A stretch of DNA of 64,000 nucleotides, from NCBI GenBank assembly GCA_009760855.2, contig WPIO01000001.1, positions 24,740,920 through 24,804,919 of the forward strand. The letters run 5' to 3'. Positions 61,089 to 63,490 of this stretch are shown here, piece by piece (position 1 is the stretch's first letter; the number at the start of each line of letters is the position of its first letter). The position numbers and the translations under genes are program-made. The DNA is from Cristatella mucedo. Lineage: Eukaryota > Bryozoa > Phylactolaemata > Cristatellidae. Below the pieces are notes generated by a model, which saw only the letters and a list, made by a program, of their open reading frames with translations, had not been told where the DNA came from and searched no databases.

Positions 61089-63490
61089 TTGCTCAATCCT
61101 CCTTCCAACCTGTTATCATTGGTAGATTGCTACAACACGACACTAGCTGATATGCTCGACGAGTTAGCACCTCTGACTAAGTGCACCGTTCGCCTTCGCT
61201 CAAATGGTCTATGGTTTGCCAGTGACATTAAACTAACTAGGGCTACACAGAGCAAGCTTGAAAAAGCATACAGAAGATCAGGACTGACTATCCATCGACA
61301 CGCGTACAAGGACTATTGTAGATGGTACCAATCGATCATAGCAAAGGCCAAGTCTAACTTCTATAAAAAAAACATTGTTGAATCACATATGCACAATCCA
61401 AAAATGCTTATATCGACGATCAACCATCTCCTTAATAACTCCTAGGTTAGCTCCTTACCTAGGGATCCTTGTGATGATCTAGCTGATCACTTCTCTAGCT
61501 TCTTTGTCAACAAGATAGAAAAGACCAGAAACTCCATCCCTTAGAAGGCAGCATCCTCCTTAGAAATATTGTCCCTCAATTCTATGCAGCACCTCAATAT
61601 CTACATTCAAGGAGGCCACGTGCGACCTCGTCATGGAGCTCATTTCCCAATCAAAGAAGACATATAGTCTTCTGGACCCTATTCCGACTGTCCTGCTTCT
61701 ACGATGCATCGATCTTGGCGAATGCGTACCGAAAGCCACTTAGGCCGTAAGTGCGCTATACAAAACTCTCCTGCGTAACACCCACATAGTCTTTATGGCT
61801 TTGTGGAGTTACAGACGGAGATACATAACATTATATTACATCTTCCGCTGTAATGCTTAACTAGCATAATAAATATTTCATTTGTCTCAGGTCATGCCCG
61901 GCACTTTTTAAAAGGACTGTAGTCAGGCCACTACTAAAGAAAGCAACACTAGACCAAGAAAACTTGAGCAACTTCTTCTCAGTCTCTCTAATACCGTTCC
62001 TATAAAAGACACTGGAATGAGTCGTGGCAGACCAGCTGAACTCATACATTAAAACTTCAAACCTTGCTAGTAAGTTCCAATCTTTTTTGGAGCTAATCAC
62101 TCCATAGGGTCAGCATTGCTTAGGGTGAATAACGACCTACTTAGTAATACAGACTTCGATAGATTACTCCTGCTTGTTTTGCTCAATCTTTCGACAGCTT
62201 TTGATGATATCGATCACCAAGTCCTTCTCGAGTGCCTCTCATCTTGCCTTTGCATCACTGGTACTGCATTGCAATGGTTTAAGTCTTATCTCAGTGGAAG
62301 ACTCCAGAGTATCGATGTGAATGGAAAAATATCATCTGACGAACAACTAATGTAATGGTGTACCTAATGGCTCTGTGCTTGGTACCGCGATTTTCACAGT
62401 TTATACTCTCCTTGTTGCCGGTGTGACTGCGAAGCACAATCATGGCTTTCACTTCTATGCAGATGACACTCAGCTGTACTTTTGCTATGATCCCTCGCAA
62501 CCCTCCAGCACGCTGAATTCTCTCAACTACCTTGCTGCATGTACAGATAACATCGGCACATGGATGGCAGCAAACTTTGTTAAATTGAATGATAATAAAA
62601 AACCTAGTTAAGGAAAAACTAAGAGTGATTCAGAAGTTGGAAAACCTAATGCTCAAAATCGGCTCTCCCAGCATACCCCCTGTCGAATCTGCATACAATC
62701 TAGGTGTCCTATTACAAAGTGATTTTTCATTAGACGACTACACAAGCTCCACCGTCAAGTCTGCCTAATTTCAGCTACATAATATTGCTAAATTCTGGCT
62801 TTCTAAGACAGGCATAATATATCTAAATTGGCCCATGCATTTGTGAGATCCAGTCTCGACTTCTGTAACTCACTGCTTGCTAAAAACTCTGCAACTAGGG
62901 CTGTCTGTCGTGAGCGTTGTAGTATCCACACCATACTACTTCTCGTCAACCTGCACTGGCTCCTAGTCAAGCAACGCATTAACTTCGAGGTTCTGTCACT
63001 CATTTTTAGGTCCCTTCATTCTTTGGCACCAGCCTACTTATCAGATGTACTCCCCTTCCAGACTAAGCATCGTACCATCCGCTTTTCGGAATCGAATAGT
63101 TTGCCTATATATCGTACAAACCTCAAATCCTTTGGAGACTGTGCCTTTAGTTCATATGGTTCCAAATCCTGGAAATAACTTCCGACTGGCGTTACGACAT
63201 CCCCTGACTTGACCACATTTAAAATCACGCTAAAAATGCACATATTTATCACAGCATGCAGTGGGTTCATTTGATTGGTCCTTTTCATATTTAAGCGTGC
63301 TGGCACTGTCAATGCTGCCACTAACCATATTTGCATGCTGACCTAGTGGTAGTCATCTCTAACCATGGTATGCTTGTTGCCATTAAGCATGCTACCACTA
63401 ACCATTTGACCATACTTCCTTTGCAGCAAATGTGAAGTGCCTAGAAGGAGATCGAGTTATCTGAGGGAGCTATAAAAAATGTATTATTAT
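61089..63490 (+). pseudogene. LINE A, longest copy (linker, RT, 3' UTR, ATT tail)
   Basis: Non-LTR retrotransposon of CR1/L2-like type. In order: the pre-RT linker (61089-61445: 'YNTTLADMLDELAPL', 'KSNFYKKNIVESHMH'); a region with stops that still reads like the RT entry (61860-62110); the palm (62116-62355: 'LLVLLNLSTAFDDIDHQVLL', 'WFKSYLSGRLQSI'); the catalytic box 'FHFYADDTQLY' (62375-62611); the C-terminal region (62828-63178: 'LDFCNSLL', 'LHWLLVKQRINFEV', 'LAPAYLSDVLPF'); then the 3' UTR and 'gtgaagtgcctagaaggaga' tail with ATT repeats ending near 63490. Stops, frameshifts and a nested LINE B tail show it is dead. The endonuclease domain is missing. Confidence 0.8.
61705..61838 (+). repeat. 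LINE B 3' end nested in LINE A
   Basis: 'ggcgaatgcgtaccgaaagc' through 'gagttacagacggagataca' and 'taacattatattaca' matches 19045-19165 closely and interrupts the LINE A linker-to-RT sequence. Confidence 0.75.

Follow-up and report, generated by a model that had tools for sequence, protein, structure and literature searches.

Why does a short element with A and B boxes at its head (SINE1) end in the same letters as an L2-like LINE (LINE A)? The question arises at 63424-63490 (+), where a LINE A copy ends. The window (the whole stretch of 64,000 nucleotides that we analysed) lies at the end of a 24.8-Mb contig, one of 688 in a genome of 572 Mb. It is animal-type DNA of 47% GC with many dinucleotide arrays and a dual-specificity-phosphatase exon, an exon-like frame at 29774-30283 (-) that matches Pfam DSPc (1.4e-18). 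At 28024-28277, a 61-bp unit is repeated perfectly in tandem, 4.2 times.

Tails common to SINE1 and LINE A

The preliminary description had quoted tail letters for both families. Those of LINE A are present at 63424-63490 (+), and those of SINE1 were confirmed in all three copies named there. However, the LINE letters quoted come from a single old copy and are not the family consensus, which is nearer AAATGTAAAGYGCCTAGARAGAGATTRAGTTCTCTGAGGGCGCTWTA, where Y, R and W mark positions differing between LINE A subfamilies. Using the tail at 63424-63499 as a blastn query, we found 16 other places in the window, including SINE1 matches at 9323-9385, 54094-54162, 6644-6584, 17178-17237 and 51325-51266. 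An HMM search finds 25 copies of the tail (~61 nt) in the window, some behind a short head with A and B boxes (SINE1) and others behind the 3′ end of the L2-like LINE (LINE A). When the 24 tails then known were masked, the best remaining place in the window (score 55) was an additional tail at 42256-42315. Next came a step overlapping it (36) and a truncated tail near 18.6 kb (33); the others of the ten best places scored 23-28.

The LINE A copy at 61100..63499 (+) is 5′-truncated and decayed, and consists of ORF2 remnants, 3′UTR and tail. Its inter-domain region lies within 61032-61442, its reverse transcriptase (RT) pieces at 62074-62352 and 62390-62599, and its C-terminal piece at 62807-63175. 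A 3′-end piece of a second LINE (LINE B) interrupts it at about 61719-61836. The tail, with a predicted hairpin and (TTA)n, occupies 63424..63499 (+). On the minus strand, LINE A tails lie at 2601..2674 (mid type), 31098..31162 (with a C-terminal ORF2 piece at 31367-31978, also minus), 35326..35396, 38436..38510 (the sole young-type tail in the window, loop UUAAGU) and 40346..40420 (old type). Plus-strand tails were found at 28676..28715 (cut after the upper stem), 33868..33934 (behind LINE A ORF2 remnants at 33328-33762), 50405..50472 (with an internal deletion) and 55800..55874 (a short 5′-truncated copy). Five more tails stand on the minus strand. The one at 46132..46204 is a tail alone, as neither a LINE nor a SINE body was recognised immediately before it. 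The other four are old: those at 16076..16147 and 45670..45730 have unclassified upstream sequence, the latter with several SINE1-like letters; 50769..50845 has LINE-type letters directly upstream; and 42256..42315 is the tail missed by the first search.

SINE1 occurs in a short and a long form. Short forms lie at 9249..9395 (+; head with an A box and a near-B box, tail from 9323), 6584..6703 (-; young, used as genome query) and 51783..51899 (-). The long forms are at 17082..17237 (+; followed by (TA)21), 53995..54150 (+; used as genome query), 13840..13995 (+; diverged) and 6219..6370 (-). A tail fragment stands beside a (TG)n/(AT)n array at 51266..51331 (-), a decayed tail with part of the head at 15219..15294 (-), and another tail fragment at 61030..61083 (-), just upstream of the LINE A copy and on the opposite strand.

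The SINE1 and LINE A tails are alignable over 61 columns, so that the common 3′ end first put at ~55 nt holds and is slightly longer. Aligning the window consensus tails of LINE and SINE, we obtained a score of 75; the best of 10,000 dinucleotide-preserving shuffles reached 30. The similarity persists when copies are aggregated. We found 188 tails across 315,589 bases, comprising the window and loci fetched from its own 572-Mb genome; this sample is not random, since the loci were fetched by queries. In the final classes, LINE A tails number 41 old, 25 mid and 15 young, and 18 more are probable LINE tails; the rest are 37 SINE1 short, 16 SINE1 long, 9 unclear SINE and 27 unclassified. The consensus tails of the two SINE1 forms are identical to those of the three LINE A subfamilies at 50-52 of 61 columns (82-85%), with pairwise scores of 70-80. 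Between themselves, the short and long SINE1 consensus tails differ at 2 of 61 columns. Tail density was 25 in the 64 kb window and 47 in 108,040 bases of SINE-fetched locus flanks. Extrapolated to 572 Mb, with the flanks being a non-random sample, this would give roughly 220,000-250,000 tails genome-wide.

Bodies of LINE A and SINE1, and a second LINE

LINE A copies end in (TTA)n; before the tail they have ORF2 remnants and a 3′UTR. Among 150 scored LINE A C-terminal protein places, the window's own included, 144 had no stop inside the match. The recent copy L051 has an 898-aa frame with matches to RVT_1 (6e-31) and Exo_endo_phos (5e-8, profile positions 48-225 of 225). Thus an APE-type endonuclease, with profile positions 1-47 uncovered, and a reverse transcriptase stand in one LINE A ORF. 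The nearest solved structure to this frame is LINE-1 ORF2p. LINE A also carries LSAAFDTI, YADDTQLY and LHWLPVKQRIDFK, which we take to be motifs of the L2 clade. Judged by these motifs and by the inter-domain motif of PMC4176376, LINE A would be an L2-like LINE. According to PMC4176376, the protein region between the endonuclease and RT of ZfL2 binds the 3′ stem-loop. Comparing by eye the residues named there, we find that W325, R338 and E341 of ZfL2-1/ZfL2-2 recur at the same spacing in L051, and that R334 and W344 are conservatively replaced by K and Y. P324 is L in LINE A, and the tail sequence differs. Two further observations concern LINE A copies. At L050 about 1-4510 (C687:7932665), a 1941-aa open frame crosses a stretch of N and was not counted as a long frame because it reads through the N. 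Inside a LINE A 3′UTR, a 38-bp unit is repeated 2.4 times at 38588-38680.

The A and B boxes of Pol III internal promoters (consensus TRGYNNARNNG and GWTCRANNC) stand about 30-60 nt apart. In the SINE1 head, the A box is exact and the B box is one letter off, at a distance of 41 nt in the short form and 58 nt in the long form. The head had been described as tRNA-like. This label rests on the A and B boxes, because ARAGORN in default mode calls no tRNA in the window or on the two SINE1 head consensus sequences, and an Rfam search of two stretches, at E up to 5 or 10, finds no tRNA either. Relaxed ARAGORN settings do call the SINE1 heads, but also 49-81 of 300 shuffles. Nothing separates the head from the tail.

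The last letters of SINE1 copies are GAATTAT, and behind them there is often (AT)n, (TTTA)n or a run of T. By our own reading, 10 of the 33 short forms have at least 5 T close behind, which would fit a Pol III terminator. The target-site duplications that were seen are short (e.g. AACGGT, TATCCC, ATCCT) and only weakly above mismatched flank pairs (mean 3.2 vs 2.3, SD 0.4, 26 copies); the highest of 200 nulls reached 3.4. At L012:1440-1501 and L036:1440-1501 (minus strand), the 3′ terminal unit TATAAATGAATTATA of SINE1 is repeated after the tail, as reverse-transcription slippage would give. Microsatellites of dinucleotide type begin right at SINE1 3′ ends at 6488-6586, 17235-17276, 51107-51266 and 15133-15216, and for this reason SINE1 may seed microsatellites in this genome.

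LINE B is a second L2/CR1-like LINE, whose protein is 44% identical to that of LINE A over 194 aa. Its pieces lie at 21736-22830, 18916-19166, 24768-24867, 45028-45127, 46401-46651 and 61719-61836; beyond 21736-22347 they were assigned to LINE B by eye and from the repeats D8, D12 and D19. The 3′ end of LINE B differs from that of LINE A: it contains TGCGCTATACAAARCTCTCCTGCGTAAC and ends near repeated ACATT. Against the SINE1 tail, LINE B, the sole other LINE compared, scores 11-25, in contrast to 70-80 for LINE A, and we rejected it as the better match. Scores of 24-25 were reached by 0 of 300 shuffles in 2 of 12 comparisons, and a short stretch around GCGCTATACAAA may be common to LINE B and SINE1 too.

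When 47 unclassified upstream stretches were compared all against all, no other heads on the same tail were recognised; we took the matches among them, judged together rather than singly, for LINE-like pieces, neighbouring tails or self-complementary tails. Template jumping as a source of SINE-LINE tail chimeras was unsupported, with 9 same-strand neighbours within 150 nt vs 8.4 expected, and 6 on opposite strands. At L026:1500-1700, a SINE1 copy and a LINE A tail stand on the same strand, the tail 13 nt behind the SINE1 copy; the arrangement could be a chimera or a nested insertion.

Predicted hairpin of the tail

The SINE1 and LINE A consensus tails have a common predicted fold, with an outer stem, an internal loop, an inner stem and a hexaloop. 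Measured against 200 shuffles each, the fold has z values of -5.48 for the young-type LINE A tail and of -4.45 and -6.59 for the SINE1 tails, with 0 of 200 shuffles as good. An old LINE A tail (the L007 copy) folds more weakly (z -1.95, 10 of 200 shuffles as good).

Comparing the consensus tails column by column, we find that SINE1 and young LINE A differ at 0 of 30 stem and hexaloop columns vs 10 of 31 others (one-sided Fisher p 0.0005). Against mid LINE A, the counts are 1 of 30 vs 10 of 31 (p 0.003), and against old LINE A, 2 of 30 vs 7-9 of 31 (p 0.02-0.08), by the same one-sided test. In the internal loop, 4 or 5 of the 6 columns differ between SINE1 and LINE A. Because the SINE-LINE consensus differences avoid the stem and hexaloop columns, the hairpin appears to have been kept as the remainder drifted.

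Compensatory base changes were sought as proof of the hairpin, and none were seen beyond shuffles. Among 22 window tails, pair changes on both sides numbered 2 vs 2.1 in shuffles, and paired cells made up 85.6% vs 86.1%. Nor was the hairpin recovered by RNAalifold from the decayed window copies. The covariation test may be confounded by CpG decay at the GCGC letters of the stem. Thus, of the conserved stem-loop for which the preliminary description suggested a test, the same predicted fold with strong z values for three of four tails stands, but covariation and RNAalifold lend it no support.

Candidate partnership, its age and the loop states

Taking these observations together, we consider it highly probable that SINE1 and LINE A form a SINE/LINE pair of the stringent type and the L2 kind, in which SINE1 is copied in trans by the LINE A protein. 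The pairing had been proposed at the outset, and the aligned aggregated tails, the worse match of LINE B and the stem-loop predicted in both families support it. Since the end sequence and the predicted RNA hairpin are common to both, SINE1 probably borrows the copying enzyme of LINE A. RNA polymerase III would probably transcribe SINE1, with the A and B boxes of the head as its promoter. Its 3′ ~60 nt, apparently inherited from the LINE A lineage, would fold into the predicted two-stem hairpin with the hexaloop UUAAGU. Binding this hairpin like that of LINE A itself, the LINE A protein would nick the chromosome and use target-primed reverse transcription to copy SINE1. The SINE1 tail probably left LINE A several subfamilies ago, and we infer the direction from LINE to SINE because old, 3′UTR-bearing LINE A copies carry SINE1-like letters.

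Several other accounts were weighed. SINE1 could be moved by another, unseen LINE, or by a rare LINE A subfamily with a nearer tail, LINE A being a cousin of the true partner. The letters of the SINE1 internal loop (columns 18, 19, 21, 38 and 39) speak for this account, as they are nearly absent from recent LINE A tails (0 of 14-15 young and at most 1 of 24-25 mid tails per column). So does the finding that several SINE1 letters occur mainly on old LINE A copies, e.g. at 6 of 12 diagnostic columns in L058:1771-1834 and 6 of 11 in L035:860-913; each LINE A subfamily departs from SINE1 at one or more diagnostic columns. The LINE-class tail richest in SINE1 letters, L045:325-384 (8 of 10 columns), was left out as evidence because its assignment to the LINEs is doubtful, a SINE1 long form standing 59 nt beyond it. 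Yet when the 3′ ends of L058 and L035 were used as queries, no young relatives appeared among the best 40 of 4551 and the best 40 of 10964 candidates. Within these scored sets of 40, the best other matches were 83-84% for one query and 85% for the second, plus one 52-nt piece at 88%. LINE B, moreover, matches SINE1 far worse than LINE A does. We therefore regard an unseen partner as unlikely. The old LINE A copies can be read otherwise: because several SINE1 letters match mainly these copies, the SINE1 tail probably came from an older LINE A lineage and was not copied from the youngest LINE A tail. The simplest account would be that the tail was taken from an old LINE A lineage and was then copied by successive LINE A generations.

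That the tail moved from SINE to LINE, or that both families got it from a third element, is very improbable in our judgement. Common tails alone give no direction, which leaves room for such a transfer. However, the median divergence from the own consensus is higher for old LINE A tails (11.5%) than for SINE1 long (8.7%) and short (1.6%) tails in these query-biased samples, and reported pairs are read as SINEs carrying LINE tails (PMC3747384). Chance or convergent similarity from (TTA)n and low complexity might be suspected from the AT-rich ends of both elements and from the several SINE1 tails that adjoin microsatellites. But the tail core without its AT-rich end still scores 58 between SINE and LINE, against a maximum of 30 in 10,000 shuffles; its reverse complement scores 12. 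Dozens of copies in each family have the tail, and 0 of 10,000 shuffles came near the observed score. We rejected this account, whose probability is practically negligible.

How does the proposed pair compare with known ones? PMC3747384 reviews 58 SINE/LINE pairs in which tails of the CR1 and RTE clades predominate, with CR1 and L2 summed in a figure; the part of its Table 1 that we saw is vertebrate-rich and has one pair under protostomes. According to PMC4176376, PMC3747384 and PMC2653535, UnaL2 with UnaSINE1 and UnaSINE2 of the eel is likewise a combination of tRNA-promoter SINEs with the 3′ tail of an L2 LINE; this LINE needs its tail stem-loop, and it ends in short repeats, as LINE A does in (TTA)n. 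The loop of the UnaL2 type is GGAUA (PMC2653535), in contrast to the predicted UUAAGU/UUGAGU with LINE (TTA)n here. The UnaSINEs, moreover, are listed as CORE-SINEs, whereas the SINE1 head is joined to the tail without any intervening part. HAmo SINE/HAmoL2 of the carp is also similar, as a young tRNA SINE and an L2 LINE with a common structured tail of about 42 nt, forming a hairpin with a GGAUA loop as in eel UnaL2. The HAmo tails differ at one base, in contrast to 9-11 of 61 columns for SINE1 and LINE A (PMC2653535). By Table 1 of PMC3747384, SINE2-8_SP/L2-1_SP of the sea urchin and Nve-Nin-DC-SINE-1/L2-22_NV of the sea anemone are invertebrate tRNA-promoter SINEs with L2 tails. As far as sequence can show, LINE A and SINE1 would work as the known L2 pairs do, with differences in loop, terminal repeat and extent. 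They would thus be a fresh example of a well-known partnership of the UnaL2/UnaSINE and HAmo kind, adding one more pair, in an animal genome, to the list in PMC3747384. The letters GCTATATAAAT occur in 7 papers, none of which deals with SINEs to judge by its title. Among titles on SINEs and LINE tails, including those on molluscs, annelids and gastropods, we recognised no description of the SINE1/LINE A pair. A tblastn search of viral contigs returned no encoded relatives.

Recent copies exist for both families. The best 40 of 2392 SINE1 candidates, the window's own included, were 95-100% identical to a window copy. Among copies selected for their similarity to a query, the median pairwise identity was 94% for 10 LINEs and 95% for 26 SINEs. 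The SINE1 long forms are older, with other copies 82-87% identical to the window query (best 40 scored).

The hexaloop UUAAGU is present in 34 of 37 SINE1 short-form tails; in the long form, it is the consensus and occurs letter for letter in 4 of 16 tails. In LINE A, the hexaloop is UUGAGU in the mid generation and UUAAGU in the youngest, but the loop states in the tail classes arise partly by construction, because young LINE tails were defined with the A-loop letter. An independent order of loop states comes only from a tree of 40 LINE 3′UTRs without the tail, read without support values. Here, ten A-loop tips form one neighbouring run with terminal branches of 0.00-0.05. The mid group with G at the loop column has terminal branches of about 0.01-0.10, overlapping those of the A-loop tips, and five more diverged copies (0.08-0.24) also have A at this column. 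The zero branches of L007/L039 and of the L050 tails are meaningless, because L007 and L039 are one copy and one 3′UTR stands under two adjacent L050 tails.

Zebrafish L2 LINEs need their own loop for retrotransposition (PMC4176376). If the loop sets specificity in LINE A as in the ZfL2 LINEs, a UUGAGU loop would shed SINE1. One may speculate on a loop-switching contest, in which UUGAGU sheds the parasite, UUAAGU returns, and the tail loop records escape and re-capture. We think this quite improbable as an account of LINE A and SINE1, and a literature search on SINE-LINE loop escape gave nothing on point by title. The pattern, speculative as it is, would be of more than routine interest: mid LINE A has UUGAGU and the youngest has UUAAGU, as in the consensus of both SINE1 forms, and the recent burst of the SINE1 short form is of similar age to the youngest LINE A generation. 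With many tails of varied age and the hairpin kept, this genome offers natural variants for testing the loop-specificity rule of the ZfL2 LINEs.
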